This document shows, piece by piece, positions 2,457 to 22,055 of a stretch of DNA of 42,601 nucleotides (positions are counted from its first letter, which is position 1; the number at the start of each line of letters is the position of its first letter). This DNA is from Gemella haemolysans. Lineage in GTDB: Bacteria > Bacillota > Bacilli > Staphylococcales > Gemellaceae. Below the pieces are notes generated by a model that was not told the origin of the DNA, did not search any database, and was given only the letters and a program-made list of their open reading frames with translations. The stretch covers positions 1-42,601 of the forward strand of contig NZ_KQ959927.1 in the NCBI RefSeq assembly GCF_001553035.1. Reading direction: 5' to 3'. The position numbers were made by a program, and so were the translations under genes.

Positions 2457-3839
2457 TTACTTCACAACTTCTATTAATGCTTGTTTTACTAAATCAAATT
2501 CTCTAGTACGAAGAGTTCTCATATCAAAGATAAGCTCGTTATCTTTGATACGTGTAATAATTGGAATTTCTACTTCTAATAATCGACGTTCAATATCTGT
2601 CGCACTTAGTCTTGGATGCTCTAATTTAACTACAACACTATCTAAATAACTTGCTGGATAACTTCCACCACCTACTTCTGCTTTATCTTCAGCTATTGTA
2701 ATCTTGAAGTCTAAGTCGCTAAGTCTTGTTTTCAGTACTTCTGCTTTTTCAAATAAACGTTCTTTTGATAATGAAATCATGTGTAATGTAGGAATGTGTT
2801 CCAACGCTTCTTTTTCATCTAGATATAATTTCAATGTAGCTTCTAGAGCTGCTAGAGTCATCTTATCTACACGTAATGTACGAGTAAGTTGGTTCTTCTT
2901 CATTTGTTCGATATATTCTTTCTTACCAACAATAATACCTGCCTGTGGACCTCCAAGAAGTTTATCTCCACTAAATGTTACAATATCAATACCACTATTC
3001 AGAACCTCTTTTACAGTTGGTTCATATGGTAAGCCAAATTTAGAGAAATCAACAAATTGACCGCCTCCTAAGTCATTTATAGATACCAGTTCATTCTCAC
3101 GAGCAAGATATGATATTTCTTCATTTGATACTTCTTTAGTGAATCCTACAATCTTATAGTTACTAGTATGAACTTTTAGTAACGCCCCTGTATTGTCAGT
3201 AATCGCGTTCTTATAGTCTTTTAAGTGTGTTTTATTCGTAGTACCTACTTCTACAGGAGTACCTCCACTTAATTTAATAATCTCAGGAATTCTAAATGCT
3301 CCACCGATTTCTACCAGTTCTCCACGAGAGACTACTATTTCTTTATCTTTAACTAGAGTATTCAATGTTAATAATACCGCCGCCGCGTTGTTGTTAACTA
3401 CAAGTACGTCTTCTGCTCCTGTTAATTTTTTGATAATATCAATAAGATGAACATAACGACTACCGCGTTTTTTATTATCAATATCAAACTCAAGGTTAGA
3501 ATAGTTAAAAGCTACACTTTCAATGTTTTCTTTAATCTTCTGGCTTAGCAAACTACGTCCTAAATTTGTATGTAAAATTGTTCCAGTTGCATTAATAACT
3601 CGACGTAAAGAATTTTTATCTTCACTTTTCACTATTTGTGTAACTTCTTCTACAATATTCTCTAAACTTGGAACTTCATGTAGTTCTTCGTTTAATATTT
3701 CTTGTTTGATTTCATTAATATAGTTTTTTATCGCTGATTTTACTCCTACTTCTGTATACTCTTGAATTAATGATTTCACTTCATCTAATAATAAAATCTT
3801 ATTTATTGCAGGAATTTGTGATAATAATTGTTTTGACAT
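2457..3839 (-). CDS. selA: L-seryl-tRNA(Sec) selenium transferase
   Basis: 460 residues, full length for SelA. This PLP enzyme converts seryl-tRNA(Sec) to selenocysteyl-tRNA(Sec) using selenophosphate. The N-terminal helical domain is followed by VINATGTILHTNLGRSLLS (about 81-99), a SelA hallmark. The PLP Schiff-base lysine is K293 in FSGDKLLGGPQAG, preceded by SINDLGGGQF. The start is supported by AGGAGA upstream of ATG 3839. Last core gene of the selenium operon, it lies only 10 bp after the cysteine desulfurase stop, so translation is probably coupled. Its partners SelB, SelD and tRNA-Sec are all in this window. Confidence 0.97.
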   Translation of the reverse strand: MSKQLLSQIPAINKILLLDEVKSLIQEYTEVGVKSAIKNYINEIKQEILNEELHEVPSLENIVEEVTQIVKSEDKNSLRRVINATGTILHTNLGRSLLSQKIKENIESVAFNYSNLEFDIDNKKRGSRYVHLIDIIKKLTGAEDVLVVNNNAAAVLLTLNTLVKDKEIVVSRGELVEIGGAFRIPEIIKLSGGTPVEVGTTNKTHLKDYKNAITDNTGALLKVHTSNYKIVGFTKEVSNEEISYLARENELVSINDLGGGQFVDFSKFGLPYEPTVKEVLNSGIDIVTFSGDKLLGGPQAGIIVGKKEYIEQMKKNQLTRTLRVDKMTLAALEATLKLYLDEKEALEHIPTLHMISLSKERLFEKAEVLKTRLSDLDFKITIAEDKAEVGGGSYPASYLDSVVVKLEHPRLSATDIERRLLEVEIPIITRIKDNELIFDMRTLRTREFDLVKQALIEVVK

Positions 3840-3849: not shown

Positions 3850-5001
3850 CTAAATTTCTTTTGCTAATGTTTTTATAGCGTTAATAGCGTAGTCTACTTC
3901 CTCATCTGTATTCATACTTGAAAATGAGAACCTTACTATCCCTTGTTCTTTTGTTCCCAATACTTCATGCATTAAAGGTGCACAATGTGCTCCAGGCCTA
4001 ACTGCAATATCGTATTCTTCAGCAAGAACATCTGCAACGTCTGAGGCTGATATTCCTTTGAAGTTTAATGCTACTACCGCAGTACGATCTTTTGTAAAAT
4101 CTCCATAGAACTCTAAACACTCTAAGTCTTTTAATTCATTATAGAATCTATTCGCAAAGTCGACTTGTTTTTTATAAAGATTTTCAATGCCATGCTTATT
4201 TATATATTTTATTCCCTCATGTAAACCTAGGATTCCAGAAGTATTCAAAGTACCCGCTTCTAAGCGCAGTGGATATTCCCCAGGGTGTTTCTCATCAAAT
4301 GTTCTAACACCACTTCCACCTACTTTAAATCTCTTAATCTCTGGTTCTTTAAGTCTCACACATAGACCACCTATTCCCTGCGGCCCATATAAACTTTTGT
4401 GTCCAGTAAAGCATAATACATCTATTCCCAATTCATCCATATTAATAGGTACTACTCCTGCTGTTTGCGAAGCATCTACAACTGAAATAATATTATGTCT
4501 TTTACAAATATCCGCAACTTTTTCTAGATCCACTATACTTCCTGTTATGTTAGAACTATGTGTAATAGCAATCATCTTCGTATTAGGTTTAATAGCTTTT
4601 TCTAGTTCATCATAATCGATTAATCCTGTTTTACCAGCTTTAACAATAGTATATTCACAACCTATTGTTTCATGCGCTAAATATATCGGTCTTAAAACTG
4701 AATTATGCTCCATAGAAGTCGTAATAACGTGATCTTCTTTTTCCAATAATCCTAAAATCGCAATATTTAAGCTTTCCGTAGAATTACTAGTAAAGACAAC
4801 CCTATCTTCTTCCTTAATACCGAAAAATTTTGCAACATCACTTCTCGCTTCAAAAACTTCGCGGAATGCATTATTTGCTTCATAATAACTACCTCTTGAA
4901 GCATTGGCATACTTTGCCGATGACAATACCTCATAGACTTTATCAGCTACTTCTTTTGGTTTTTTTAGTGACGTTGCACCGTAATCAAAATAATAACTCA
5001 T
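3850..5001 (-). CDS. Cysteine desulfurase / selenocysteine lyase-type PLP enzyme
   Basis: 383 residues, class V aminotransferase fold, starting MSYYFDYGATSLKKP. The PLP lysine is K202 (CFTGHKSLYGPQG) and the catalytic cysteine is C340 in RPGAHCAPLMH. The conserved histidine of the family is in TTSMEHNSV. It belongs to the group of desulfurases found next to selD in several Firmicutes. Family knowledge: such enzymes deliver selenium (or sulfur) from the free amino acid to SelD. The location between selB and selA supports a selenium-donor role, but sequence alone cannot separate cysteine from selenocysteine preference. Confidence 0.9.
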   Translation of the reverse strand: MSYYFDYGATSLKKPKEVADKVYEVLSSAKYANASRGSYYEANNAFREVFEARSDVAKFFGIKEEDRVVFTSNSTESLNIAILGLLEKEDHVITTSMEHNSVLRPIYLAHETIGCEYTIVKAGKTGLIDYDELEKAIKPNTKMIAITHSSNITGSIVDLEKVADICKRHNIISVVDASQTAGVVPINMDELGIDVLCFTGHKSLYGPQGIGGLCVRLKEPEIKRFKVGGSGVRTFDEKHPGEYPLRLEAGTLNTSGILGLHEGIKYINKHGIENLYKKQVDFANRFYNELKDLECLEFYGDFTKDRTAVVALNFKGISASDVADVLAEEYDIAVRPGAHCAPLMHEVLGTKEQGIVRFSFSSMNTDEEVDYAINAIKTLAKEI

Positions 5002-5048: not shown

Positions 5049-6932
5049 TTATTTCTTAACTAAAACTCTATAATTTTCTAAGCGTCTAGTTATGCCAATT
5101 TTATCCATATACTCTAAAATGGCCATAGAGTACTTTCTACTAGAACCTGTCATATCTCTAAATTCTGCTAGTCCTATTTGATCATTAGTTTTAAAATGAT
5201 CTTCTACTTTTTGAACAGCATCTTTAAATACTTTTTCATGTAAAACTAAATCAGCATCTAGTCTTACTACCGTATTATCTATAAGAGATTCTAACAACTC
5301 AACATTTGCTTTTTCTCCATTTGTTAGTTCTTTAACACTTGGAGGTGTGAAGCCACCATCTAGTAATGCTTTTTCAATTCTTTCTTTTTCTGCCAGTTGT
5401 TTTTTATCATAATTAACTACGAAATCTTTTTCTGCAACTAAATTACCTTCTAAGCGAATTTCGTTATTTAGTATGAATAAGTCTAATAACTCTAACATTT
5501 CTTTTTGAGAGATTTTAAACTTAGAAAGTACTTCAATCTTAGGAATTCCTACTTTTAATTTATATCTATTGTGGTAGTCACTTAATAGTTTCTTAAGTTT
5601 TTCTAACACTTCATCATATTTTTTCTTATGAATATAGCCTAATTTTGTTTCATAGATTGTAGTGTTTTCTACTAATTGTGTTAGTGACTCCTCAACCTCT
5701 TCTTTAGGAAGTTGAAGTTCTTTTAAAATATTCTCTTTAGAATTTAAGTAGTCAGTATGCGATAATAAATAGTTGGCAATTAAATCAGTTGTATTACCTT
5801 CAAGCTGAACTTTCAGTTTTTCTAAGACTTCTTCATTAAATCTACTGTGTTTTTTAGGATTAGCATCTAATATTACTCCTCCACCTATTGTGATCATAGG
5901 TGAATATGTACGTATAATAAATTTATCATAGTTTTTAACCGCAATTTCTTCTTCAAGTCGAAGCTGCGCAAAACTACTTTCTCCAGCTTTTAATAAATCT
6001 GTTCCAAGTGGTACAACACGTGCCATTACTTCCTCAGTACCGATATAAACACGTACTCTATCCCATAATTCAAGATTTGCTCTCTCATCATTTATTAGTT
6101 TGATTTCAGTATCAAGCATATATGTTTTTGTTAATGAACCTGCAGTGGCTAATGTATCACCACGTTTCACATCATCAAACTTAATATTCGCTAAGTTTAT
6201 AGCTGTTCTTTGCCCTGCATAGGCAGTTTCTACATCCTTCGAGTGAACTTGAATATTTCTAACTTTTGCTTTTACTTCTTTTGGATAAATTACTAATTCA
6301 TCTCCTACATTTATAACACCTTCTGTAAGAGTTCCTGTTACAACTGTTCCAAATCCTTTTACTTGGAATGAACGGTCAATGTTAATTCTAGCATTTTTCT
6401 CAACATTTTTTGCTGCGATATCTTCTGTTTTCTTATCGATTGTAGCTAATAATGTATCAAGTCCTTTTTTGCTAATTGAATCAACTTCAATTATTGGAGA
6501 ATTTTCAAGAACTGTACCTGAAATAAATTCTTGGATATCTTCTTTTACTAATTCTCTATATTCTTCTTCAACTAAATCTATTTTCGTCATTACGATAATA
6601 TAATTTTCTATCCCTAATAACGTTAAAATATCAATATGTTCTTTAGTCTGTGGCATGATTCCTTCTCTAGAATCAACTAGTAGTAAAACTAAGTTTATAC
6701 CACTAACCCCAGCAAGCATATTTTTAATAAACCTCTCATGGCCAGGAACATCAACAACTCCACATCTTTTTCCACTCGGTAGATCAAAATATGCGAACCC
6801 AAGGTTAATAGACATCCCCCTATCTTTTTCTTCTTGAGTAGTATCTGTCTCAATTCCGCTCAGAGCCTTAATCAACGTAGTCTTACCGTGATCGATGTGC
6901 CCTGCCGTACCAATAATTACATTGTTATTCAT
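5049..6932 (-). CDS. selB: Selenocysteine-specific elongation factor SelB
   Basis: 627 residues. An N-terminal EF-Tu-like GTPase has G1 GTAGHIDHGKTTL, G3 DVPGHERF and G4 TKID; domains II and III follow to about residue 350. The C-terminal half is a run of winged-helix domains that in this family bind the SECIS hairpin of the mRNA, ending EFRDMTGSSRKYSMAILEYMD, the typical WH4 motif. A GTG at 6941 is in frame, but it overlaps the ribosome site AAAGGTG, so the ATG at 6932 is the better start. SelB brings Sec-tRNA(Sec) to UGA codons. A 12-bp inverted repeat sits in its leader. Confidence 0.97.
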   Translation of the reverse strand: MNNNVIIGTAGHIDHGKTTLIKALSGIETDTTQEEKDRGMSINLGFAYFDLPSGKRCGVVDVPGHERFIKNMLAGVSGINLVLLLVDSREGIMPQTKEHIDILTLLGIENYIIVMTKIDLVEEEYRELVKEDIQEFISGTVLENSPIIEVDSISKKGLDTLLATIDKKTEDIAAKNVEKNARINIDRSFQVKGFGTVVTGTLTEGVINVGDELVIYPKEVKAKVRNIQVHSKDVETAYAGQRTAINLANIKFDDVKRGDTLATAGSLTKTYMLDTEIKLINDERANLELWDRVRVYIGTEEVMARVVPLGTDLLKAGESSFAQLRLEEEIAVKNYDKFIIRTYSPMITIGGGVILDANPKKHSRFNEEVLEKLKVQLEGNTTDLIANYLLSHTDYLNSKENILKELQLPKEEVEESLTQLVENTTIYETKLGYIHKKKYDEVLEKLKKLLSDYHNRYKLKVGIPKIEVLSKFKISQKEMLELLDLFILNNEIRLEGNLVAEKDFVVNYDKKQLAEKERIEKALLDGGFTPPSVKELTNGEKANVELLESLIDNTVVRLDADLVLHEKVFKDAVQKVEDHFKTNDQIGLAEFRDMTGSSRKYSMAILEYMDKIGITRRLENYRVLVKK

Positions 6933-6957
6933 ATATTTCACCTTTACACTATATTAA

Positions 6958-7028: not shown

Positions 7029-7301
7029 TTATTTAATTTTATAATCTTCTAATTCTTTTATTACTCTCTTGATTCCAGTTTTTTTAGAATAGTATAGTCC
7101 ACGATATTCAATATTTTCCTCTTGTAACATTCTTACAATGTTATCAAAATTATCCCATGCTGTTTTTAGCATAAAACCACATCCTATACTTATTGATGGG
7201 TGAGTAGGGATTAATGATGCTGCAAGTTTTCTTTCTAAACAAATGTTATCAGCCTTTATCGAATCATGCGTACTATTAAAAACAATTAAACCTTCTTCCA
7301 C
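7029..7301 (-). CDS. DUF3343 protein, putative Se/S carrier
   Basis: 90 residues. The start is GTG 7301, seven bases after an AGGAGG ribosome site, 11 bp behind the yedF stop. The protein holds HPSISIGCGFML around residues 34-45, the DUF3343 core with the conserved Cys (SIGCG). Family knowledge: DUF3343 proteins are small and co-occur with yedF and selD in selenium-using anaerobes, and they have been proposed as selenium or sulfur carriers without firm biochemistry. The position in this operon agrees. The neighbouring YedF is the likely partner. Confidence 0.8.
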   Translation of the reverse strand: MEEGLIVFNSTHDSIKADNICLERKLAASLIPTHPSISIGCGFMLKTAWDNFDNIVRMLQEENIEYRGLYYSKKTGIKRVIKELEDYKIK

Positions 7302-7312: not shown

Positions 7313-8113
7313 CTATGGTTGAATTACTTTGTTCGCTTTTCTCATATCTTCTACGATGAAGTACATGTTTGTTGGATTACCAACTGCTAAGTCAATCTTA
7401 TGATAGTCAATACATGCTCCACAACAAACTATTTCTACACCAGCATCTTCTAGTGTTTTTAATTCTTCAATTACATGACTACGAGTTTTATCTACTAAAA
7501 CTCCTCCATTATTGTAGAAAATAATTTTTTTAGGTAATACTTCTTGTTCCCCTAAAGCGTATAGATAAGCTTTTATTAATCTTTTACCTAGCTCTTCACT
7601 ACCATGCCCCATTTGATCTTTGTTAATTACAACAATGTAGCTATCATCTTTAACAACTGGAGCAACTTCTAATTGCGGTGCTTCTTCTTTAGTAATTTCT
7701 ACTTTAAAGCCACCTTCAATATCAGAAACTTTAAATTCATAACTATTTTTATCGGCAAATTTTCTAAGACTTTCAACACTGTCTTCAGTTTTTACTAATA
7801 ACGTGACTTTTGTTTCTTCTTCTAATACACGTATAGCTTGAGTTACAGGTACAACACATGTATCACATAATGTATCAACAACTACACCTTCAGTAACCTC
7901 TCCTTTAGAGATTGTAACGATGTATTTATCTTTTGCTTCCTCTTTTACCGCAAAGTTATATCCTAATTGAGTTGCCATTTTTTCTAAATTTTGTGTAGCA
8001 ATAACGTTATCTACAATTGTTTCGACTACATCATTATCCACTAATAATTTTTTTGTTTGAATAACTGGCATTGGACAAACTAAACCTTGTGCGTCTAGAA
8101 TTTCTTTTTTCAT
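7313..8113 (-). CDS. yedF: Selenium metabolism protein YedF (TusA-like plus DsrE-like domains)
   Basis: 266 residues. The N-terminal TusA/SirA-like domain (1-75) carries the CPxP motif in LDAQGLVCPMPVIQTKK, where the Cys can hold a persulfide or perselenide. A middle segment repeats a TusA-like fold with DTLCDTC, and the C-terminal domain (about 160-266) is DsrE-like with VCCGACIDYHKI, again cysteine-rich. This three-part layout is that of the selenium-associated YedF family. Start ATG 8113 follows AAAAGGAGA. It sits between selD and DUF3343, so it probably relays selenium in the cytosol; this role is inferred from context and is not proven. Confidence 0.9.
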   Translation of the reverse strand: MKKEILDAQGLVCPMPVIQTKKLLVDNDVVETIVDNVIATQNLEKMATQLGYNFAVKEEAKDKYIVTISKGEVTEGVVVDTLCDTCVVPVTQAIRVLEEETKVTLLVKTEDSVESLRKFADKNSYEFKVSDIEGGFKVEITKEEAPQLEVAPVVKDDSYIVVINKDQMGHGSEELGKRLIKAYLYALGEQEVLPKKIIFYNNGGVLVDKTRSHVIEELKTLEDAGVEIVCCGACIDYHKIDLAVGNPTNMYFIVEDMRKANKVIQP

Positions 8114-8139: not shown

Positions 8140-9165
8140 CTATTTAACGATAACTGCTTTTTCTTGTTTTTCTATAACTTTTCCTACGATAGCACTCTTA
8201 ATTTCAAGAGTATTAAGTTTTTCTAATAATTCATGTGCTTCATCCTCTGGTAAGCTTATTAATAACCCACCTGAAGTTTGTGGATCATACATGATTTCTT
8301 CTAATGCAAAGTCTTTAACCTGATATTCTACATTCGGCTCAACAAACGTTCTGTTTAATTGTCCACCGGCAGTAATAACAAATTCATTAGCACATTTATA
8401 TGCTTCTTCAATATATGGAATATCTTTTGTATATACTTCTGCAGAATATTTGCCATCTAGCATCTCTACAAGATGTCCTAGGAAACCAAATCCTGTGATA
8501 TCTGTACAACTATTTACGTTGAAATCTTTCATCATTTGAGCAGAGTATTTATTAAGTGTTGTCATTTGTTTAACGCTTTGAGCAAATGCTTCTTCAGAAC
8601 ACTCTTTAACCATATGGGCTGTATTAATAATACTTACACCTAAAGGTTTTGTTACTATTAGTAAATCCCCTACTTTACAATTGTTATTTTGTAATATTTT
8701 ATCAGGATGAACAATTCCTGTTACTGATAAACCATATTTTGGTGTAGCATCATGAATAGAGTGCCCTCCAGCAAGCACTCCCCCTGCTTCATGAACTTTC
8801 TCAGCTCCACCTTTTAATATTTGATGTAATATTTCTAAGTCCATATTTTCTGGGAAGGCAACGATATTCAATGCTGAAATAACTTCCCCACCCATTGCAT
8901 ACACATCACTTAGTGCATTAGTAGCTGCTATTTGACCATATAAATATGGATCATTAATCATCGTTGTGAAGAAATCTAAAGTTTGAATAATCGCCTTATC
9001 TTCAGATATTTTATAAACGGCTGCATCATCTGAAGATTCATATCCTACTATTAAGTTTTTATCTTCTTTTTTAGGAAGATCTCTTAAGATATCTGACAAG
9101 GCCCCTGGCCCTATTTTCGAGTTTCACCCTCCGCAAACTATCATGTTCATTTTTTTCTCTGACAT
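8140..9165 (-). CDS. selD: Selenide, water dikinase; Sec-containing, in-frame UGA at codon 14
   Basis: SelD makes selenophosphate from selenide and ATP. The frame opens at ATG 9165, seven bases after GGAGG, and runs 341 residues if the TGA at 9126-9124 is read as selenocysteine: the active-site motif is CGGU-NSKIGPGAL, with Sec at 14 and the catalytic Lys at 17. Without UGA readthrough the frame starts only at TTG 9099 and loses the active site. The downstream part is a complete SelD (FTTMINDPYLYGQIAATNALSDVYAMGG; GGHSIHD; CTDITGFGFLGH). A hairpin at 9098-9112 fits a bacterial SECIS. First gene of the selenium operon. Confidence 0.97.
9098..9126 (-). promoter_or_regulatory. UGA codon and SECIS-like hairpin of selD
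   Basis: Twelve bases after the UGA (9126-9124) a 6-bp stem AGGGCC-AGG-GGCCUU forms at 9112-9098. The apical loop lies 18-20 nt after the UGA and has a G among its first two bases. These features match the published description of bacterial SECIS elements (stem behind the UGA, loop roughly 16-37 nt away, early G). The run of G and C is striking in such AT-rich DNA. Confidence 0.85.
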
Positions 9166-9199
9166 ATTTACCTCCAATTTATACTACTACTTAACTATA

Positions 9200-9228
9200 A
9201 TTATACTACTTCAAAACATTTTTTAAAA
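9200..9228 (-). promoter_or_regulatory. Likely selD operon promoter
   Basis: Minus-strand -10 TATAAT (9205-9200) is 17 bp from a weak -35 TTTTAA (9228-9223). The -35 hexamer overlaps the first bases of the 29-bp attachment site, so element integration leaves the promoter intact but changes everything upstream of it. Confidence 0.5.
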
Positions 9229-9253
9229 GTATTATTTAGTTTTTTAATGTAAA
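9225..9253. repeat. attL: left copy of the 29-bp attachment core
   Basis: 29 bases identical to 22711-22739, same orientation. The flanking bases differ (T versus C to the left, T versus A to the right), so the repeat is exactly bounded. It lies next to the integrase gene and about 60 bp from the selD start. Confidence 0.9.
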
Positions 9254-9286
9254 TTATCCTTGTTCTATTAGATATCTAGCAACCTG

Positions 9287-9304
9287 CTCTCCGTTAACTC
9301 TCCG
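9287..9304 (+). repeat. Integrase arm-site pair, left end
   Basis: CTCTCCG at 9287-9293 and again at 9298-9304, spaced 11 bp (about one helical turn). The same pair with the same spacing recurs at 20678/20689 and 22587/22598. It lies between attL and the end of the integrase gene. Confidence 0.65.
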
Positions 9305-9308
9305 ACTT

Positions 9309-10412
9309 TTAAATACTCATGAATTTATAGAATTTTTCTGTAGTTTCTTTACTTTTTTCATCTGTAATATGAGTGTATGTATTCAATGTAGTTGTTATAT
9401 CTTTGTGACCTAATCTATTTTGAATTTCTTTCGCACTCAAGTCACTTTCAAATAATAAAGTTGCGTGAGTATGGCGGAAACCGTGCGGGGTTATCTGTTT
9501 TAGTTTTGGAAAATCTCTGTATATCCTTAGTAACATACCATTAAAATAGTGTCTTGAGTTTTTTATAAATACTCCATTATTAATACTTATAAAGTTATCT
9601 AGTTCTCTATAACTCTTCAATTCTTTAATGGTTTCATCATCAAGAAATATAATTCTTTCACTTGATTTTGTTTTAGTCGTTGAGATTTTCGACTTACTTC
9701 CGATATTCATCATATTTTTACTAATAGTTAATGTTTTTTTCTTAAAATTAATATCTTTCCATGTTAAAGCCCTCAACTCTCCTAAACGAATACCAGTAAA
9801 AGCTAGTATGCGAAAAGCTATATAAGTTTCACTTGAATAATTTTCCTTAACTATTTTTAAAAACTGTAACAATTCTTTTTTAGTGTAATAATTCTTTTTC
9901 TTTTCTTCTATCTTCTTAGGTACTTTAGTTAATTTCATATAGTTGGTAGGTATTATCTCCATCTTAACAGCATAATCTAAAATTTGAACTATAGTACCTT
10001 TTATTAAAGTTACATAGCCTTTTTTATAAGTTTTTGAAACCTCATTTATAAAGTTTTGGCAATATGGCAACTTAATATTAATGATTTTTAACTCTTTAAA
10101 AACTGGTAGTATCCTTTTATCTAGAATAGTTTTTATAGTATGATAGCTACTTTCTTTTACTTGTGTTTTGTGTTGTTCTTCCCAAAGTTTGTACACATCA
10201 CCAAAAGTAATATTTTCACTTCGTAGAAAGTTACTACCATTTAAAAACTCGTTCTTAGCCTTAACTATATAATTTTGTGCTTCTCTCTTTGTTCTAAACC
10301 CTTTTTTAGAAATTCTTTTTTCTTTTCCTGTGTAAACATTTTTACCAAGGTATTCATTTTTTACCTCGTAGTATTTTTTATTTTCTTTACTGTTAATGTA
10401 TTCTTTTATCAT
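9309..10412 (-). CDS. int: Site-specific tyrosine integrase of the element
   Basis: 367 residues in the standard three domains: an N-terminal arm-DNA-binding domain (about 1-55, TGKEKRISKKGFRTKREAQN), a core-binding SAM-like domain (about 65-165), and a catalytic domain. Catalytic residues visible are R209 (AFTGIRLGELRAL), H310 and R313 (TPHGFRHTHAT), H336 (RLGHKDI) and Y346 (TLNTYTHI). This matches Tn916/phage-type integrases. It is transcribed toward attL, which lies 56 bp past its stop. An arm-binding domain predicts short repeated arm sites, and the CTCTCCG pairs near both ends fit that. Confidence 0.96.
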   Translation of the reverse strand: MIKEYINSKENKKYYEVKNEYLGKNVYTGKEKRISKKGFRTKREAQNYIVKAKNEFLNGSNFLRSENITFGDVYKLWEEQHKTQVKESSYHTIKTILDKRILPVFKELKIINIKLPYCQNFINEVSKTYKKGYVTLIKGTIVQILDYAVKMEIIPTNYMKLTKVPKKIEEKKKNYYTKKELLQFLKIVKENYSSETYIAFRILAFTGIRLGELRALTWKDINFKKKTLTISKNMMNIGSKSKISTTKTKSSERIIFLDDETIKELKSYRELDNFISINNGVFIKNSRHYFNGMLLRIYRDFPKLKQITPHGFRHTHATLLFESDLSAKEIQNRLGHKDITTTLNTYTHITDEKSKETTEKFYKFMSI

Positions 10413-10430
10413 TTTCTCTCATTCCTCTCA

Positions 10431-10470
10431 CTAGTGCCAGTAGTTTTATAAATAAATGAAAATGTTAGCT
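10431..10470 (+). repeat. Dispersed repeat copy A (AGTGCCAGTAGTT family)
   Basis: Begins CTAGTGCCAGTAGTTTTATA and extends 40 bp. A second copy is at 15499-15537 (same strand) and a shorter inverted copy at 22531-22560. This copy lies just upstream of the integrase start. Its function is not known. Confidence 0.7.
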
Positions 10471-10482
10471 ACATTATGTAAG

Positions 10483-10572
10483 ATATGATATAATGAAGTT
10501 ATCTTTATTAGATGCATTCAAAATATCATTTTCGATTAAAATCACTGGTTTAAGTCAGTGATTTTTTTATTT
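10483..10572 (+). ncRNA. Candidate short RNA: promoter followed closely by a strong terminator
   Basis: An extended -10 (TGATATAAT, about 10485-10493) is followed within 75 bases by a perfect hairpin AATCACTG / CAGTGATT (about 10543-10565) and a T-rich tail. This sits in the 574-bp gap between int and fic, where no convincing gene lies. A 22-codon ATG frame overlaps the -10 box itself and is probably not used. The remainder of the gap holds the 10869-10951 tandem hairpins. Confidence 0.4.
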
Positions 10573-10868
10573 TGTCAAATAAAGTTAGCTTTCTCATAAA
10601 AAACACCTCATATTTTAAATGATACAGCCTTTAAAAAGATTTTTAGGGTTATTACTCCAAAAGATAAAGAAACCTTTTAGAAGCTGTTTAAATAGCTAAT
10701 ATAAGAATGCAGTTTACATAACTATATAAATTTATGTTTATATGCTATTTTTTCTTAAATCAAGTAGCAAAATGAAAGAATACCGCATCTTTCTCCAGTT
10801 AAGCAACACATTTACTAAAAATTCAAGTGGTTGTAAATTATTAGTTGATAACCATTAGAGATATTGAT

Positions 10869-10951
10869 AATGGAAAAAACCTCTAGATTTTCCATTTTGA
10901 GTTACTAAATTATTTCCATAATGGAAAAATCACCTGTATTTTCCATTTTGA
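10869..10951. repeat. Tandem hairpin repeat downstream of fic
   Basis: Two copies of a 32-bp unit, 10869-10900 and 10920-10951, start AATGGAAAAA and end TTTTCCATTTTGA. Each unit is an inverted repeat (ATGGAAAA / TTTTCCAT). The period is 51 bp. It lies about 35 bp beyond the fic stop codon and could serve as a doubled terminator. Confidence 0.65.
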
Positions 10952-10986
10952 ACTGTAAGCTATTGATTGACTGTTCAAACTCAATT

Positions 10987-11712
10987 TTAACAATCCATCA
11001 TACTAATGTATTTTTCAAGTTCTTCAATTTCATAATTCGCTATTAAGTCAGTAAGGTAATCAGCATTGTTATTAATATGATATTCATCAAAACTATTGTA
11101 GTACTTTTCTCTATCTGTAAATTTAATATTTACTGGTAGCAATCCATGTTTTATTAATTCAAAATTAAGAAGTAGTCTTCCTGTTCTTCCGTTTCCATCA
11201 ATAAATGGATGTATACTTTCAAATTCTAAGTGTAATAGAGCTATTGCCTTTAATATATGATGATGTTGTTTCCACTCCTCATATTTAACTAGCAATTCAT
11301 CAATATTTCTTTCTATTTCTTGCGGTTCGCTAGTCTTATGACTTGAACCTAATATTTGAACGTTAACTTGTCTAAATACTCCTTTATTCTCTCTATCATT
11401 CATTAAAACTAAGCTGTGTATATCTTTTATAACTTGTTTTGTCAATGGCTCGTTAACAATATCTAGAATATAATAAAAAGCGTCCTTATATCCTATTACC
11501 TCTAAATGTTCACGTACCTTTTTACCTTGAATGGTAATTCCTTGTTGCAATATTAAAGCCGTTTCCCTTAAAGTAAGAGTGTTCCCCTCAATAGCGTTAG
11601 AGTTATACGTATTCTCTATAATAAAATTTTCTCTTAGCTTTTCAAGTTCAGTCTTGTTTAAAGGTCTAAGCTTTGCTATTTTCTCTTGTAACTTATCAAT
11701 CTTATCAAACAT
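10987..11712 (-). CDS. Fic family protein (AMP-transferase type), class II with N-terminal inhibitory helix
   Basis: 241 residues. The Fic core HPFIDGNGRTGR is complete at 168-179 (consensus HxFx[D/E]GNGRxxR), so His168 can act. The inhibitory motif SNAIEGN at 38-44 fits [S/T]xxxE[G/N], with E42 expected to block ATP until relieved. Such proteins usually transfer AMP from ATP to a target hydroxyl. Start ATG 11712 follows AAAGGAAGTG. It lies 75 bp behind the repressor gene on the same strand, so it is probably expressed in the integrated, repressed state. That placement suits a host-protection or maintenance cargo gene, but the target is unknown. Confidence 0.93.
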   Translation of the reverse strand: MFDKIDKLQEKIAKLRPLNKTELEKLRENFIIENTYNSNAIEGNTLTLRETALILQQGITIQGKKVREHLEVIGYKDAFYYILDIVNEPLTKQVIKDIHSLVLMNDRENKGVFRQVNVQILGSSHKTSEPQEIERNIDELLVKYEEWKQHHHILKAIALLHLEFESIHPFIDGNGRTGRLLLNFELIKHGLLPVNIKFTDREKYYNSFDEYHINNNADYLTDLIANYEIEELEKYISMMDC

Positions 11713-11786
11713 TGTTTCACTTCCTTTAAAAATCTGTGGTTAGTTTCACTTCATATTACTATAATCAGATACTAATATCATTGTAT

Positions 11787-12884
11787 CTACTCCATTTTAC
11801 CTAATATAGGGGCTAGATATTTACAATCAGGCTTTTCAGTTATCTTTGTTATAAAGTAAGAATTATCATGATTTAATATGAAGTATTGTACTTCTGTATT
11901 TAGTGGTACGTCTTCTATATAATCATAATCGGCTAGATAATAGAGTACATTGTTTTTCTCAATTATCAGCCCCAGTATTTTTTTATAATTATCTAGACCG
12001 TATTTATTAGTATTTAAAAAATAACCGCTAGATTTTAAATAAAATGTATTTTTTTTAAAAATAACTTCCATATCATTTTCACACAGTTTAATCAGTGTTT
12101 CATAATTCATATATTCTATATGTTTTTTTGTAAGCATACCAAAAGACTGTTTATAATCTAGTTCATGAATAATGTATGAAAAGAATACATAAATAGAAAT
12201 TTTATTTTCTATATTACTTTTTGATAATAAGAGTAATGAAGTATATGTATCAAAATTAGCAATTATATATTTTTTTGTTTTATTAGAAATTCTAGAATTA
12301 TGAACAATTAAATTTCTTAAGTAAGACAAGTACTCATAATCGTATGATTTTGAAATACAATATATAGCTTGAATTAAAACTTCATTTTTTAAAATAGAAC
12401 GTACTTCATTTTCAAAAATCTCTATAGATGATGTTTGACTATCGATAAAATCAAGTATTTCAATAACTTTATTTTCTAATAAAGAATTAAACGCTTGCTC
12501 TATACTTTTTATATCATTTACAGAAATTTCAATTATTTTACTTGAGCAAATTTTCTCTATATATTCTATACAAAGTTCTACTAAATTATAAGTGTATAAA
12601 AGGCTTTTATACGGATATTTACTATTCATTAATAATACTTCAATATTATTTTCTAAAAACTCGTTAATAGAACCGTACAACAATTCATTAACGGTAATAC
12701 CTGCCATTTCACTAATATTAGCTAATCTTTCTTTATTAGGTAATGTAAAACCAGTTTCCCACTTTTGTGCATTACTTTTGGTAGCACTAAATACTTTTCC
12801 AAAACTTTCTAAAGTATACCCCTTACTAATTCTAATTTCTTTTATTCTAAAGCCTACTTGTTGTTTATCTATCTTTATTTTCAT
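11787..12884 (-). CDS. HTH (XRE-type) repressor of the element with a long unknown C-terminal domain
   Basis: 365 residues. Residues 1-65 form a Cro/CI helix-turn-helix (GFRIKEIRISKGYTLESFG ... SNAQKWETGFTLPNKERL). The remaining 300 residues are helical, rich in Ile/Tyr/Asn, with no LexA-type peptidase dyad that I can see and no match I recognise. A GTG at 12896 is in frame, but GAGGTGA lies ahead of ATG 12884, which is preferred. It diverges from the Cro-like gene across a region with paired operator-like repeats. The size and layout resemble satellite master repressors (Stl-like), which are relieved by a helper-phage protein binding rather than by self-cleavage; this is inference. Confidence 0.8.
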   Translation of the reverse strand: MKIKIDKQQVGFRIKEIRISKGYTLESFGKVFSATKSNAQKWETGFTLPNKERLANISEMAGITVNELLYGSINEFLENNIEVLLMNSKYPYKSLLYTYNLVELCIEYIEKICSSKIIEISVNDIKSIEQAFNSLLENKVIEILDFIDSQTSSIEIFENEVRSILKNEVLIQAIYCISKSYDYEYLSYLRNLIVHNSRISNKTKKYIIANFDTYTSLLLLSKSNIENKISIYVFFSYIIHELDYKQSFGMLTKKHIEYMNYETLIKLCENDMEVIFKKNTFYLKSSGYFLNTNKYGLDNYKKILGLIIEKNNVLYYLADYDYIEDVPLNTEVQYFILNHDNSYFITKITEKPDCKYLAPILGKME

Positions 12885-12954
12885 TGAATATATCACCTCA
12901 AATACTAATACATATTTTCATTATACATTATCTTTATAAAAAAAGAAACAAGAA

Positions 12955-13036
12955 AGTATAAAAATGAACTCAAAAAATAGTTGACATTACTTTTTTAGTA
13001 TGTTATTATGTTTATAGAGTATAAAACTGTACTCAA
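12955..13036. promoter_or_regulatory. Divergent control region: operator-like repeats and rightward promoter
   Basis: Two 19-bp direct repeats, AGTATAAAAATGAACTCAA (12955-12973) and AGTATAAAACTGTACTCAA (13018-13036), differ at only two positions, and the second contains the dyad GAGTA/TACTC. Between them lies a strong rightward promoter, -35 TTGACA (12981-12986) and -10 TATTAT (13004-13009), spacing 17. A leftward -10 TATAAT is also visible near 12922-12927. This is the expected genetic switch. Confidence 0.75.
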
Positions 13037-13060
13037 GAAAAAAAGAAGGTGGTGAATATT

Positions 13061-13273
13061 ATGGAAAAACCTAAAATTAATAAAATACGTGCATATCGTG
13101 AAGCATTAAATTTATCACAAAAAGAAATGGGAAAATTAATAAATGTACATCATGTTGTATACAGTCGTAAAGAAAGAAAAATAGTTAATTTTACAGATAA
13201 AGAAAAAATAACTTTACTCACTTATTTTAAGAAGTTTTTTCCAGATGAAACTATTGATACTTTATTTTTTTAA
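13061..13273 (+). CDS. Cro-like HTH regulator
   Basis: 70 residues starting MEKPKINKIRAYREALNLSQ. The XRE helix-turn-helix is KIRAYREALNLSQKEMGKLI ... VHHVVYSRKERK. Two GTG codons at 13049 and 13052 are in frame but overlap the ribosome site AGAAGGTGG, so ATG 13061 is the start. First gene of the rightward operon, transcribed from the TTGACA/TATTAT promoter and divergent from the large repressor. A Cro-type or activator (Str-like) role is inferred from position. Confidence 0.85.
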   Translation: MEKPKINKIRAYREALNLSQKEMGKLINVHHVVYSRKERKIVNFTDKEKITLLTYFKKFFPDETIDTLFF

Positions 13274-13383
13274 ATCTAAAGTATCAAAAAGGAACCAAAA
13301 AACTTTGCATTAAATTAAAATGCGAGCCAGTCTAATAAAAAAAATTCTCTTTATACCTTTTGTTGAATTATGAAAATGCATTT

Positions 13384-13448
13384 GCTAAAAATTAATCAAT
13401 CAGAAATGTTAAAAATTAACAAATGGATTTGTCAAAAACTAACAAATG
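13384..13448. repeat. Three iteron-like repeats, about 23-bp period
   Basis: GCTAAAAATTAATCAAT (13384), GTTAAAAATTAACAAATG (13408) and GTCAAAAACTAACAAATG (13431) are spaced 24 and 23 bp. They lie in the 783-bp gap between the Cro-like gene and the Rha-type gene, just before AT-rich tracts. They could be binding sites for an element regulator or a replication protein. Confidence 0.6.
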
Positions 13449-13495
13449 TAATCAAAAGAAAAATAAAAGATTAAATAAAGAGAATGTATATATAA

Positions 13496-13692
13496 TCATT
13501 CATCATTATATATATTATATATAGGGTGGGAAGAATTGGGAATATCGAAGTAGACAAAATGACCATATCTGAAATGGTCAAAATGACCACTTCTCAAGTA
13601 GACAAAATGACCACACCTATACCAAATAATAAAAAATAATAACAATGATTTATATTATATCATCATTCATCATATATATATTATATATAGGG
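13496..13692. repeat. AT-rich direct repeats flanking a small segment
   Basis: A 31-bp sequence TCATTCATCAT-(AT-rich)-TATATATAGGG at 13496-13526 recurs at 13663-13692 with a one-base deletion. Each copy ends in GGG followed by a potential GTG start. The block between contains the 24-bp VDKMT repeats. Confidence 0.7.
13526..13639 (+). pseudogene. Possible remnant of a phage replisome-organizer gene, with 24-bp in-frame repeats
   Basis: A 37-residue frame from GTG 13526 contains VDKMTISE-MVKMTTSQ-VDKMTTPI then a stop. The underlying DNA repeat (AAGTAGACAAAATGACCA) occurs at 13548, 13572 and 13596, period exactly 24 bp, i.e. eight codons. From family knowledge, VDKMTTP-like octapeptide repeats occur in phage replication-initiator proteins, where the coding repeats can double as origin iterons. 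No ribosome site of quality and no HTH domain are present, so I read it as a remnant or as DNA binding sites rather than a working gene. Confidence 0.4.
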
Positions 13693-13781
13693 GGTGATTT
13701 GACTGAATGAGAGATAAAAAAAGAACCTTTATACCGTTATCAGTTCGCCAAAACAATCTAACGTTATAAGGTTTGAAAACC

Positions 13782-13842
13782 GCTATTTACTAAAAAATAA
13801 CTTACTTTTATTATATCGTAAGAACCCTTATTAGTAAATAGC
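13782..13842. promoter_or_regulatory. Large nested hairpin upstream of the Rha-type gene
   Basis: Perfect 12-bp arms GCTATTTACTAA (13782-13793) and TTAGTAAATAGC (13831-13842) enclose a second hairpin CTTAC/GTAAG. No strong T-run follows. It may be a leader attenuator or a cruciform-forming site. It is one of several long-range inverted repeats in the element. Confidence 0.55.
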
Positions 13843-14056
13843 AAAGCACAAAATAAATATAACTATCTAAATTTGTTGAATAGATTTTCTAATGTGTTTA
13901 AACCTACTCTATAGATTTAATGAACACTTTAGAACCTATATAAACCTTTATTTAGTCAGCAGTATTTATTTTGAAAGAATAGAATTACTATACTCTATTC
14001 TTCTATTTAATTTAATAAGGGCTTTTTGTCACGCCCTAGAAATGAGGTGAAAGACA

Positions 14057-14647
14057 ATGACAAACACAAATATAATAAAAATTGATGGCAATACAGTAGA
14101 GGTAATAAGTGAAACATTACATATTACTGATATTAATAATAAAACAGAGTGGACTAGCGTCGAACTTGTAGACGTTATAAACCATTTTAGAACTCTAGAC
14201 GGGAAAAAAACTCAATTAAGACATGATACACTTTTAAATATCTTACGTGATGAATTTAGCGAAGAAATCTCACTCCAAAATATTTTGGAACGAACTTACA
14301 CTAATTCACGTGGTCAAACATATCCAATGTATAAACTTTCAAATTCACAAGCTAAACAAATATTAGTAAGAGAAAGTAAAGCTGTAAGGCGTGCGGTTAT
14401 CAAACTACTAGAGTACCTAGAGCAACATAACAAGCATAATCTTAATATTTTAAATGAGCGTGAAGCTTTTCTATATGAGCAAGGCTTAATTATTGATACT
14501 GTTGATAAAATGGCGGACTTGATAAAGAAAACTAAAGAACTTAGCAATAAAAAAGATATTTGCCAAAGAATTATCAATCTTATCAACGCTAGTCAAAGTA
14601 GTGTACCGTTGCCAACTAGAACAGCTTACACTACTACTTATAATTAA
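14057..14647 (+). CDS. Rha-family phage regulatory protein
   Basis: 196 residues. Residues 25-125 match the phage regulatory Rha layout: WTSVELVDVINHF (the usual TS-x2-VAE region), then a short acidic stretch, TYTNSRGQTYPMYKLSNSQAKQIL, and a helical end. The C-terminal 70 residues are a predicted coiled coil. Family knowledge: Rha-type proteins are lambdoid and Gram-positive phage regulators; some block growth in hosts lacking IHF, but their general role is unclear. Start ATG 14057 follows GAGGTGA. It heads the mid-operon group that runs to 15451. Confidence 0.75.
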   Translation: MTNTNIIKIDGNTVEVISETLHITDINNKTEWTSVELVDVINHFRTLDGKKTQLRHDTLLNILRDEFSEEISLQNILERTYTNSRGQTYPMYKLSNSQAKQILVRESKAVRRAVIKLLEYLEQHNKHNLNILNEREAFLYEQGLIIDTVDKMADLIKKTKELSNKKDICQRIINLINASQSSVPLPTRTAYTTTYN

Positions 14648-14663
14648 AAGGCGGTAAAGTATT

Positions 14664-14795
14664 ATGAAACAAACAAAAATGAATAACGAGCACAAAGAAA
14701 TGTACATTAATACTTTATGTTTAGCGTTAGTAGGGTTTCCGTTAGTGTATGCTTTTACCTACATTATAGCCCGATTTATGGACGTATTTTATTAA
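14664..14795 (+). CDS. Small membrane protein
   Basis: 43 residues from ATG 14664, 16 bp after the Rha-type stop, with the ribosome-binding sequence AGGCGGTAAAG before it. Residues 16-38 are strongly hydrophobic (NTLCLALVGFPLVYAFTYII), one membrane span, with a charged N-terminus (KQTKMNNEHKE). Tight spacing on both sides (19 bp to the next gene) argues it is translated. Similar tiny membrane proteins are common in phage early regions. I do not recognise a family. Confidence 0.65.
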   Translation: MKQTKMNNEHKEMYINTLCLALVGFPLVYAFTYIIARFMDVFY

Positions 14796-14814
14796 AGAAA
14801 GGTAACAATAGATT

Positions 14815-15084
14815 ATGGAAGTTGTTTTAACTGAAAATCAAAGTTTGAAGATTAAAGAGCAAATTACTAATTTAATTAATGAGGTGATAAAAGAAAGACT
14901 GAACACTATTAACCCCGAAAAAAGGTATTTTACACGTACTGAATTACAAAAGTACCTAAATATAGGGGCTAGTAGCATGGAGCAACTACAAGCGTTAGGG
15001 CTTCATTATGTAAAGGTTGGTAATAGACATTTATTTGATATTCAAGAAGTATATGATATTTTTGAAAATCACAAAGTAAGATAG
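14815..15084 (+). CDS. Excisionase-like small DNA-binding protein
   Basis: 89 residues. The C-terminal half RYFTRTELQKYLNIGASSMEQLQALGLHYVKVGNRHLFDIQEVYDIF is a winged-helix MerR/excisionase-type fold (helix-turn-helix then a beta wing with the VGNRHLFD turn). The N-terminal 35 residues are a charged helix. In elements like this, such a protein usually serves as Xis, bending DNA at the att arms to direct excision. It might instead be a general regulator of the DUF771/HTH_17 kind. The ribosome site AAAGG lies before ATG 14815. Confidence 0.65.
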   Translation: MEVVLTENQSLKIKEQITNLINEVIKERLNTINPEKRYFTRTELQKYLNIGASSMEQLQALGLHYVKVGNRHLFDIQEVYDIFENHKVR

Positions 15085-15100
15085 TTATGAGGTAATAAAA

Positions 15101-15451
15101 ATGGAACTAAACGAGATTATAGAAGATAAAAAAGAATTAACCGAAGTTATAAAGGATATTGAGGAAATAGCCCAAAGATTAGCAAGCTTGCATGTTTCAA
15201 TGCGAATATTAGCTACACATTGCTTGGTTATTAACACACTCTCAACAGATGAGTTTAAAACCTTAAAAATAACGGAAGAAGAATTGTGGAAGTATTGGGA
15301 CAAAGTGCAAAACGGTAGAAACTTACATACGTTAACAGAAGAAACCGCTCTTCAGTTATCAGAAGAGTTAAGCTTTTTAATATATGTATCTCTAGAAGAA
15401 GTAAAAGAAGCACTACAAAATATTAATAAAGTATCAAACGATATTATTTAA
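15101..15451 (+). CDS. Hypothetical helical protein
   Basis: 116 residues, ATG 15101 with GAGGT ten bases upstream and 16 bp after the previous stop. Acidic and almost wholly helical, with heptad-like stretches at 1-40 (IIEDKKELTEVIKDIEEIAQRLASLHVS) and again near the end (SLEEVKEALQNINKVSND). I do not recognise it. Lies at the end of a four-gene block that shares close spacing, before a 270-bp gap. An accessory role in the element is all that can be inferred. Confidence 0.7.
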   Translation: MELNEIIEDKKELTEVIKDIEEIAQRLASLHVSMRILATHCLVINTLSTDEFKTLKITEEELWKYWDKVQNGRNLHTLTEETALQLSEELSFLIYVSLEEVKEALQNINKVSNDII

Positions 15452-15498
15452 TAGATGTAGAGCAATTACAAAATAGAACAATTTTAAAAAATATAAAT

Positions 15499-15537
15499 CT
15501 AGTGCCAGTAGTTTTATAAGTGAATGAGAATGTAGCT
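15499..15537 (+). repeat. Dispersed repeat copy B (AGTGCCAGTAGTT family)
   Basis: Same sequence family as 10431-10470, beginning CTAGTGCCAGTAGTTTTATA, with a few substitutions and one deletion towards the right. Lies 48 bp after the previous gene. Confidence 0.7.
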
Positions 15538-15545
15538 GTTTAAAG

Positions 15546-15635
15546 CACATATGAGCCTTTTAAAGTATTTCTTAGGTGAAATCATATCAAAGGAAAATAA
15601 ACGGCTTGTATGTGCCTTTATTTTAATCTACAAAA
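15546..15635. terminator. Long-loop inverted repeat, probable terminator
   Basis: Arms AAGCACATATGAGCC (near 15553) and GGCTTGTATGTGCCTTT (near 15603-15619) pair imperfectly and are followed by TATTTTAAT. Between the arms is AAAGGAAAATAAACGGC, close to AAAGAAAATAAACAGC at 16113-16127. It separates the 14057-15451 block from the next gene. Confidence 0.4.
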
Positions 15636-15724
15636 GCGTTTATTTACTAAAAATACTGTTGTTAGGCATAGCACTAGTTATTTTTATAAAATCAAAAAAC
15701 TAATTTTAAACAAGAGGTAAAACC

Positions 15725-16045
15725 ATGGAAATAAAAGACTTTAAAGAACACGTACTTAAAACTTTGTTAGAGTATGAACAGCTAAACAAAGAATTACAAA
15801 CAGTTAGAGAAACTTATATTACAGCCCTATCTAATTTTTACAAAGATAATAGAGTATTTTTTTGTACAGATAAAGAGGAACTTGTAAGAGAATTTTTTAA
15901 CAGTGAAATTTTTAATCAAGCCCACTTTTTAACAATTCATAAATCACTAATTAATGAAGTTGAAACAAATGTGAAAATTAAACACACTGAACTTGTAGAA
16001 GCGTTCAACATGTTAGATAAGTTATGGGAGAGAAAAGAAAACTAG
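15725..16045 (+). CDS. Hypothetical helical protein
   Basis: 106 residues, ATG 15725 with AAGAGGT eight bases upstream. Mostly helical and charged: residues 1-35 (KDFKEHVLKTLLEYEQLNKELQ) look like a coiled coil, and the centre has FFCTDKEELVREFFNSEIF. No family recognised. It is flanked on both sides by long inverted repeats. Size and position fit the small accessory genes that sit between regulators and the replication gene in satellites. Confidence 0.65.
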   Translation: MEIKDFKEHVLKTLLEYEQLNKELQTVRETYITALSNFYKDNRVFFCTDKEELVREFFNSEIFNQAHFLTIHKSLINEVETNVKIKHTELVEAFNMLDKLWERKEN

Positions 16046-16124
16046 CTTGTATTAGCTAATATTTTGCTTGTTAAAGCTCAAGAATAAATAAAATGGTATA
16101 TTTTTATCAAAAAAGAAAATAAAC

Positions 16125-16222
16125 AGCTTAGAAGTCGTTTAAATAATTCTGAATTTTACGTACAGGAAATTTATTTCTTGTGTACAAGTTGAGATTAGAT
16201 AACTTAAACGATATTGTAAGCT
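16125..16222 (+). promoter_or_regulatory. Long-range inverted repeat in the leader of the short recombinase gene
   Basis: AGCTTA...CGTTTAA (16125-16142) pairs with TTAAACG...TAAGCT (16204-16222), closing just before the AGAAAGGAA ribosome site of the gene at 16240. Inside is GTACA...TGTGTAC. The outer stem ends a few bases from the ribosome site, so it could affect translation. Confidence 0.45.
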
Positions 16223-16239
16223 AGAAAGGAACAAATACA

Positions 16240-16788
16240 ATGTATTATGTAGAACCGTTAAAGAACAAGGAAGACATAAAAATCCTTGATAGTTATTTTA
16301 AACAGCAAAATTCTAGAAATCACTTGTTATTCAACTTAGGTATTAATACACCTATGCGAGTAAATCAATTAGTAAAATTAAAAGTACGTGATGTGCTAGA
16401 TAAGGAAGAAATAACAGTAATAGTTGGTAGAAAGGTTATATCATTTCCATTAGGTAAAAAACTACAGAAATTGATAAAAGATTATTGTATAGATAAGGAA
16501 ACTAATGACTTTCTTTTTAAATCTTTGAGACTAAAAAGAGGTTATAAACCACTAACAGAAAACTATGTAAATAAAATTATAAAAAATGCAAGTCAAAAAT
16601 GTAATCTAAATAATATTGGTGCTAGTTCACTTAGAAAGACATTCGCATATTTCTATTATGAGCGAACTAAAAATATACGTAGTTTAATGAAACTACTAAA
16701 CCACCATGACCAATATTTTACTTTGCAATACATAGGGAAAAATGAGAATTTCTATAATGATAATTTCATAGAATGGGAAGAACTTTAA
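16240..16788 (+). CDS. Short tyrosine recombinase (catalytic domain only), His box altered
   Basis: 182 residues containing only a tyrosine-recombinase catalytic domain. Box I is NTPMRVNQLVKLKVRDV with R40. Box II reads GASSLRKTFAYFY: R132 is present, but the usual His three residues earlier is S129. The second His region is LLNHHDQYF (H155/H156), and Y164 in LQYIGKN is the candidate nucleophile. No core-binding or arm domain. Start ATG 16240 follows AGAAAGGAA. It may be an element-borne resolvase or accessory recombinase, or may act with the full integrase. Lack of the His is tolerated in some family members. Confidence 0.85.
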   Translation: MYYVEPLKNKEDIKILDSYFKQQNSRNHLLFNLGINTPMRVNQLVKLKVRDVLDKEEITVIVGRKVISFPLGKKLQKLIKDYCIDKETNDFLFKSLRLKRGYKPLTENYVNKIIKNASQKCNLNNIGASSLRKTFAYFYYERTKNIRSLMKLLNHHDQYFTLQYIGKNENFYNDNFIEWEEL

Positions 16789-16965
16789 CTATGAAAATAA
16801 AAAATATTTTTGTTCATTCCTCTTGTAGGTGATATGCGGAATAAAAATAAGTGAAAGTTGTTGAATATCTTGAAGAGAAAAGAAAAAACTCTATATATAG
16901 ATACGTAACAAACTATAAGATATGATACATAGTCAATGACTAAAATATATATTTTTAATATTTGT

Positions 16966-16995
16966 CAGTCAGTCAATCAACAGTCAGTCAATCAA
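16966..16995 (+). repeat. Perfect 15-bp tandem duplication
   Basis: CAGTCAGTCAATCAA occurs twice head to tail, after AGTCAATGACT (a dyad) at 16931-16941. It lies about 100 bp before the primase-helicase gene, in the 304-bp gap 16789-17092, which shows no gene. The TCAGTCA units could be binding sites controlling replication gene expression. Confidence 0.7.
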
Positions 16996-17092
16996 TAATA
17001 ATGTTAGCTAAACTTTGTTACATTGAATGCTTTAACTAGACTTACATTTCTATATAGAGCAAATAAAATAAACTTAGAAAGGAGTTGTTAGT

Positions 17093-19288: not shown

Positions 19289-19353
19289 AGATGGCGTTAA
19301 AGAACATTTCAAAGTTAGTAAACGCCACCTATAAAATGTTATAACATCAGTAT

Positions 19354-19484
19354 TTAGGACGTATTGGACGTTTAAGGCATTTTTTCATATATTATATATA
19401 ATAATAAATATATATAATATAGTATATATTATATTCCTACTAATACGAACCAAAAAAACGTCCTAAAACGCTGTAACGTCCTAA
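19354..19484. other. Candidate replication origin of the element
   Basis: TTAGGACGT (19354-19362) and a variant ATTGGACGT (19363-19371) lie left of a roughly 50-bp tract that is almost pure A/T (19381-19435). To the right, ACGTCCTAA occurs at 19458-19466 and 19476-19484, i.e. the same 9-mer on the opposite strand. Two sets of iterons around an AT-rich region directly 3' of the rep gene is the described plan of SaPI origins. The remaining gap (19289-19915) holds only inverted-repeat arms (GGCGTT/AACGCC at 19293-19326) and no gene. Confidence 0.65.
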
Positions 19485-19915
19485 GCCTTTCATATCAAGG
19501 ATGAATAAGAGCCGTTTAGATGAAAATCAAATGGAGTTTTAAACGCCCACTACAAATAGTTTGAGGATTGTTATGTAATAATTAGAAAATATTACACATC
19601 AACTTTATTGAATAAAGAAAGATATTACATAATTAATAAAAATAGCTTTTCAAGAATGTTTTTCAAAAATTTACAATAATATATTTAGAAAGAAAACTAA
19701 TCAAGTTAAGATAACAAGATTAGTTTTCTTTATTTTACTATTATTTCAAATGCTAACAGCTTTTAAGAGGTTGAAAGGTATTAATTTTATCAAAATAAAA
19801 TTAGAATGCTTATACACCTTTTAAATGGCTCTTAATTTTAAGAAAAGAACTTGAAACAGAAAAATATATAGTATATCATTGAATTTCAATATTAAAACAA
19901 AGAGGTTAACTCATT

Positions 19916-20065
19916 ATGAATGAAAACTCACCAAAGCAATATGATATTGAATGTTTAGAAGATATACACGATTTAATAATAATGAATGAGTATGAAGAAA
20001 GAAAAGCAAATAATGAAGTTGAATATATAACTTTTGAAGAGATGAAAGAAGTACTTGATATATAG
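19916..20065 (+). CDS. Small acidic protein resembling the C-terminal half of RelB-type antitoxins
   Basis: 49 residues from ATG 19916, preceded by AAAGAGGTTAAC. It reads MNENSPKQYDIECLEDIHDL ... ITFEEMKEVLDI. The pattern DxExLEDIxD plus a terminal S/TxEExxxxLG/DI helix is that of the toxin-binding tail of RelB/StbD-like antitoxins, but the DNA-binding N-terminus is missing and no RelE/ParE-like toxin follows. It could be an orphan antitoxin fragment, an anti-toxin decoy, or an unrelated small acidic protein. Confidence 0.55.
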   Translation: MNENSPKQYDIECLEDIHDLIIMNEYEERKANNEVEYITFEEMKEVLDI

Positions 20066-20200
20066 AGTTTATTGCTAAGAACAAGTACTGATTTAAGTTT
20101 ATATTTCTTACTACATTTAACTAAAAATTTCTTGTAATTACATAAAATATTATTTACAATAAAGGTATAAGATAACATTTTTAAAAGGGAGTAGATTTAT

Positions 20201-20497: not shown

Positions 20498-20512
20498 TAA
20501 AATTTTAGTAAC

Positions 20513-20606
20513 GGCTATTTGAGATAATTTAAAATTATTAGAAATGAAAACTTGTGAAGATTAAAAAAATTCTAGTAATTAAGATTAAGTCAAATAGCCC
20601 CTTTTT
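20513..20606 (+). terminator. Long-loop terminator of the rightward operon
   Basis: GGCTATTTGA (20513-20522) is perfectly complementary to TCAAATAGCC (20590-20599), which is followed by CCTTTTTTATC. The 67-nt loop is unusually long for a simple terminator, so the loop may itself be structured. Confidence 0.6.
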
Positions 20607-20677
20607 TATCATCTTTAAATACGGTATTTAATTTTTAAGTACTCTAGAGCCTTGATATACTTGACTTTTTAAAAATA

Positions 20678-22000: not shown

Positions 22001-22055
22001 CTTGAAATTCATCAATGATAAAATGTAGTTAAAAATACTTGCTGTAAATTTAATA

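Follow-up and report, generated by a model that had tools for sequence, protein, structure and literature searches.

The selD gene of this window, that is, the whole analysed stretch of 42,601 nucleotides corresponding to one entire contig of the Gemella genome, is in our estimation (probability about 0.96) a genuine selenoprotein gene whose UGA codon 14 is decoded as selenocysteine (Sec). The sequence basis for this conclusion is the open frame and its UGA, their conservation, a hairpin that follows the UGA, the co-occurrence with tRNA-Sec and the presence of other Sec-containing client genes. From these data we predict that Sec is inserted in Gemella SelD, that SelB binds the hairpin and that the enzyme is active. 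The coordinates of the features are collected in Table 1.

Table 1. Features of the sel locus in the window
Feature	Position	Strand	Basis
selD, selenide water dikinase, 341 aa, Sec at codon 14	8140..9165	-	TIGR00476, 379 bits; codon-position conservation
In-frame TGA, putative Sec codon 14	9124..9126	-	aligns with catalytic Cys of SelD structures 2yye and 3u0o
GGAGG ribosome binding site (spacing to ATG 5 nt)	9171..9175	-	read from sequence
SECIS-like hairpin (stem of 8 bp; loop AGG, 9106-9104)	9096..9114	-	folding, comparison across genus
Predicted selD promoter TTTAAA-16-TATAAT	9200..9227	-	10/12 consensus matches
yedF, selenium metabolism protein (TusA + DsrE-like domains)	7313..8113	-	TIGR03527, 206 bits
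Putative Se/S carrier protein	7029..7301	-	PF11823
selB, Sec-specific elongation factor	5049..6941	-	TIGR00475, 347 bits, cut-off 242
Cysteine desulfurase family protein	3850..5001	-	TIGR01977; related to Sec lyase SclA, below SclA cut-off
selA, Sec synthase	2457..3839	-	TIGR00474, 596 bits
selC, tRNA-Sec, UCA anticodon	31814..31906	-	RF01852, 68.7 bits, gathering score 47

As proposed in an earlier, sequence-only reading of this DNA, selD starts at ATG 9165 and reads through the TGA in one open frame of the minus strand, which ends at the TAG stop at 8140. When TGA is translated as U, this single frame gives 341 residues (MSEKKMNMIVCGGU14NSKIGPGAL...VIVK) and contains no other TGA. Its match to the SelD profile lies far above the cut-off of 125 bits and is full-length (profile positions 4-310 of 311). 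The same reading had placed Sec of the motif CGGU-NSKIGPGAL at the catalytic position and, indeed, U14 aligns with the Cys of both reference structures. In addition, the active-site spacing UxxK, the motif given in a 2026 review that counts SelD among the experimentally verified selenoproteins (PMC13188914), is satisfied by U14-N-S-K17. The GGAGG announced upstream of the ATG is also present, with a spacing of 5 nt and not of 7 nt as first stated.

The 6-bp stem with an AGG loop (AGGGCC-AGG-GGCCTT) described 12-26 nt past the UGA was found as claimed, and we observed that it lengthens to 8 bp, ATAGGGCC-AGG-GGCCTTGT. Its folding energy is -9.9 kcal/mol. When the region was recoded synonymously 5000 times according to local codon usage, the mean was -3.3 (sd 1.8) and only 0.4% of the recoded sequences folded as stably, so the hairpin goes beyond chance. 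It is present in each of the nine Gemella genomes despite AT-rich codon usage, and the rare codons that build it, GGG CCR GGG, are likewise retained in 9/9, although GGG represents only 12% of the Gly codons and CCG 12% of the Pro codons in the genes of the window. The stem is reduced to 5 bp in one Gemella genome (G008), and to 5 bp with a 5-nt loop in G011 and G015, two genomes of the sister genus. Because most stem positions also encode conserved residues, covariation is limited to a few pairs. Among SelD sequences from Bacillota, the mean fold z-score is -1.9 for 44 TGA forms, -1.5 for four TGC forms and 0.06 for three TGT forms; the Cys sequences compared are few and some of them identical. 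These scores separate Sec-SelD from Cys-SelD weakly.

The genes selA, selB and selC were listed for the window in the earlier reading, and all three are there. The apparent operon has the order selD-yedF-Se/S carrier-selB-desulfurase-selA, and selC lies apart from it. In the predicted promoter region 5' of selD, TAGTATAAT is conserved in relatives. Near selC (33911-37323) we noted two lipoproteins with double rhodanese domains and a fusion protein that joins a TIGR04282 glycosyltransferase to a kinase domain of APH type; their genes are devoid of in-frame TGA. Among 157 genomes of the order Staphylococcales, full-length SelD was detected in 11, each time with one TGA, and tRNA-Sec above the Rfam cut-off was detected in exactly the same 11 genomes.

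One could suppose that an ordinary amino acid, and not Sec, is inserted at UGA-14, given that non-Sec read-through SPS genes are known in animals (PMC4561486). The presence of selA, selB and selC, the identical distribution of tRNA-Sec and UGA-SelD in the 11 genomes and the hairpin at the SECIS position argue against it, and we regard such a decoding as very improbable.

Still less credible is a TGA arising from a sequencing error, or from a mutation in a pseudogene, with a working enzyme that would contain Cys. TGA is only one base away from TGC or TGT, and a lone genome could not have excluded an error. However, 9/9 Gemella genomes and the two sister-genus genomes G011 and G015 carry a SelD with a single TGA, none of them having a Cys form, and the TGA also occurs in the SelD records named G. 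haemolysans, G. sanguinis, G. cuniculi and G. bergeri, the nearest named relatives by SelD identity (97%, 94%, 91% and 89%, respectively). Moreover, the differences relative to L006 at codon positions 1/2/3 amount to 24/8/134 downstream of the TGA and to 0/0/5 in the ten codons upstream; they fall mostly at third positions before and after the TGA, and coding selection therefore acts on both sides. The independent genomes thus already refute an error or pseudogene origin. In a search of the contig collection with SelD, the matches were Gemella sequences and one metagenome-assembled genome with a seemingly misplaced title: this contig (L043), titled Leptotrichiaceae, carries a SelD 81% identical to that of Gemella, and its title may not match its content.

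One could also suppose that translation begins at the internal TTG 9099, correctly identified as Leu23 of selD, where the sequence-only reading expected a standard annotation to start; the upstream frame would then be irrelevant and the protein would lack the active-site residue. This codon is in frame, opens an intact 319-aa ORF and has an AGGGG close upstream. Initiation there is nevertheless most unlikely: the codon varies, with TTG shared by this genome and G003 alone and TTA, CTA or CTT elsewhere, and it falls within the hairpin, to which the AGGGG, 2 nt away, belongs. The ten codons preceding the TGA are conserved as coding, and in this family a SelD without the U/C residue should be inactive (PMC4561486).

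Other Sec clients of Gemella were found, and those named here for the genome of the window form a minimum list. This genome contains a glycine reductase operon (L089 7021-14218, G000:C77) with in-frame TGA in grdA and grdB. It encodes GrdB (TSTUGTCTRC), matched by the PF07355 profile, together with proteins that we take, from knowledge of their families, to be a TrxB-like protein, GrdE, GrdA (CFVUTAAG), GrdC and GrdD. The UGA of grdB is followed by a 7-bp hairpin whose loop is GGT; a search past the UGA of grdA gave no hairpin with a small loop containing GG. The genome also encodes a TIGR04167 radical-SAM selenoprotein (L016 686-1648) with the C terminus GAGSSUGGETC, in which Sec stands five residues from the end; its gene lies next to those of an AhpD-like protein and a glycosyltransferase. 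This gene is held by 12 of the 15 family genomes searched, with one TGA in each of the 12. Its SECIS-like hairpin continues 3' of the stop codon, with a stem that covaries among the 12 genomes (TAGCATA/TATGCTA, TAACATA/TATGTTA, CTCTTA/TAAGAG, AAGTTTC/GAAACTT) around a constant GG in the loop; stems of at least 6 bp occurred in this region in 3.7% of shuffled controls.

In the relatives G004, G007 and G001 we observed prdB (TAGUGTCHR) and prdC (CQDUTNT), both with in-frame TGA; proline reductase operons with these two genes lie, in Gemella genomes other than that of the window, at L090 13784-18968, L091 5812-12525 and L092 5355-12093. The PF07355 search gave no PrdB-type match in the genome of the window itself. 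GrdA and GrdB, together with PrdB and PrdC in relatives, point to selenium-dependent glycine and proline reduction in the genus Gemella. No FdhA-type molybdopterin oxidoreductase was found in the genus, and 0/9 Gemella genomes had YbbB/MnmH (selenouridine trait) above the cut-off, with partial rhodanese matches only, or YqeB (TIGR03309; selenium-dependent molybdenum hydroxylase trait). The PF00578 peroxiredoxin-like matches have no in-frame stop. The absence of FdhA and YbbB had suggested SelD as the only selenoprotein, in a purely self-serving loop, and this idea was rejected as GrdA, GrdB and the TIGR04167 selenoprotein are encoded in the genome. In the literature covered, which is incomplete, we found nothing on Gemella selenoproteins.

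The selD gene lies beside a 13.5-kb phage-satellite-like integrative element (window about 9223-22739), located between 29-bp direct repeats and carrying genes for an integrase, a Fic protein, repressor-like and anti-repressor-like proteins, a second integrase-like protein and a VapE-type helicase/primase. The best matches of its integrase in the phage collection are streptococcal satellite phages (38% identity); selD itself matched nothing in this collection. In G003 and G004 this site is likewise taken by related elements. The repeat is uninterrupted and in one copy in G005 and G007, and the G008 copy has two mismatches. The repeat on the selD side overlaps the predicted -35 hexamer of selD (9227-9222), so that integration keeps that part of the promoter in place.

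Another rearrangement was observed in the sister genus, in G012, whose genome is a single contig. There about the first 49 codons of selD are joined to the 3' end of selA (L084 1330-1710), and what stood between the two is gone. The remnant selD still has its TGA, with a damaged hairpin region, and in this genome we found no TIGR04167 gene and no tRNA-Sec above the cut-off. This collapsed operon illustrates one route, deletion, by which the Sec trait is lost.

The mechanism that we infer from the families of SelB, SelD and SelA is the following. SelB carrying Sec-tRNA-Sec would bind the hairpin just past codon 14 and have selenocysteine inserted at the UGA, so that SelD would be made in full, with Sec in the active-site position. 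SelD would convert selenide and ATP to selenophosphate, from which SelA would make Sec-tRNA, closing a loop that would also supply GrdA, GrdB and the TIGR04167 radical-SAM selenoprotein. Since SelD makes selenophosphate and SelA turns it into Sec-tRNA, SelD synthesis would need some of its own product, and the sequence-only reading was logically right that the Sec machinery may partly rely on its own product. Because SelD needs this product and heads an operon with selB and selA, one could imagine the sel locus as a positive-feedback, all-or-none selenium switch, in which exhaustion of Sec-tRNA would halt translation of the first gene at codon 14 and lower expression of the operon; we consider this unlikely. 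In C. difficile, whose SelD is listed as containing Sec (PMC1794560), a plasmid copy of selD under its own promoter complemented a selD deletion (PMC5677094). Start-up from zero SelD would evidently be possible, provided that the complementing C. difficile selD carries the UGA.

This gene is best read as a Sec-SelD with a SECIS of bacterial type, and this reading is supported, yet such a gene is not unusual. That SelD is itself a selenoprotein is established (PMC1794560, PMC4561486, PMC13188914), and in the literature it counts as a major family of selenoproteins. FdhA and SelD are the most widespread bacterial selenoproteins (PMC1794560), Sec occurs in 19% of the SelD genes of a reference set, and Sec and Cys forms are both reported to be active (PMC4561486). 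SelD is present in 261/398 genomes of our Bacillota sample, where most of the approximately 150 SelD matches listed have one in-frame TGA and seven have no in-frame stop. In Bacillota the enzyme usually occurs as Sec-SelD, which is already well known, and the Gemella finding is correct and ordinary.

As in Clostridioides difficile, many Bacillota and Haemophilus influenzae, Sec stands at the same single position with a hairpin directly 3'. Gemella selD also leads an operon with selA and selB, as in known systems such as the C. difficile selD-selA-selB locus (PMC5677094), and there are Sec clients in the genome. Gemella differs in three respects: within Staphylococcales the trait occurs only in its family, Sec is followed by NSK and not by AAK or GCK, and the search of the genus yielded no gene of FdhA type, unlike C. 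difficile, whose listed selenoproteins are SelD, FdhA, GrdA, GrdB and proline reductase (Table 3 of PMC1794560). According to one hypothesis, it is mainly SelD that maintains the Sec trait where a genome has no FdhA (PMC1794560). Gemella resembles this case in having Sec-SelD and no FdhA, but it departs from it in that the search for a selenouridine synthase found none and that SelD, accompanied by further selenoproteins, is not the sole client. Sequence comparison thus establishes Gemella as a selenium user, whose SelD would be truncated under the standard code.
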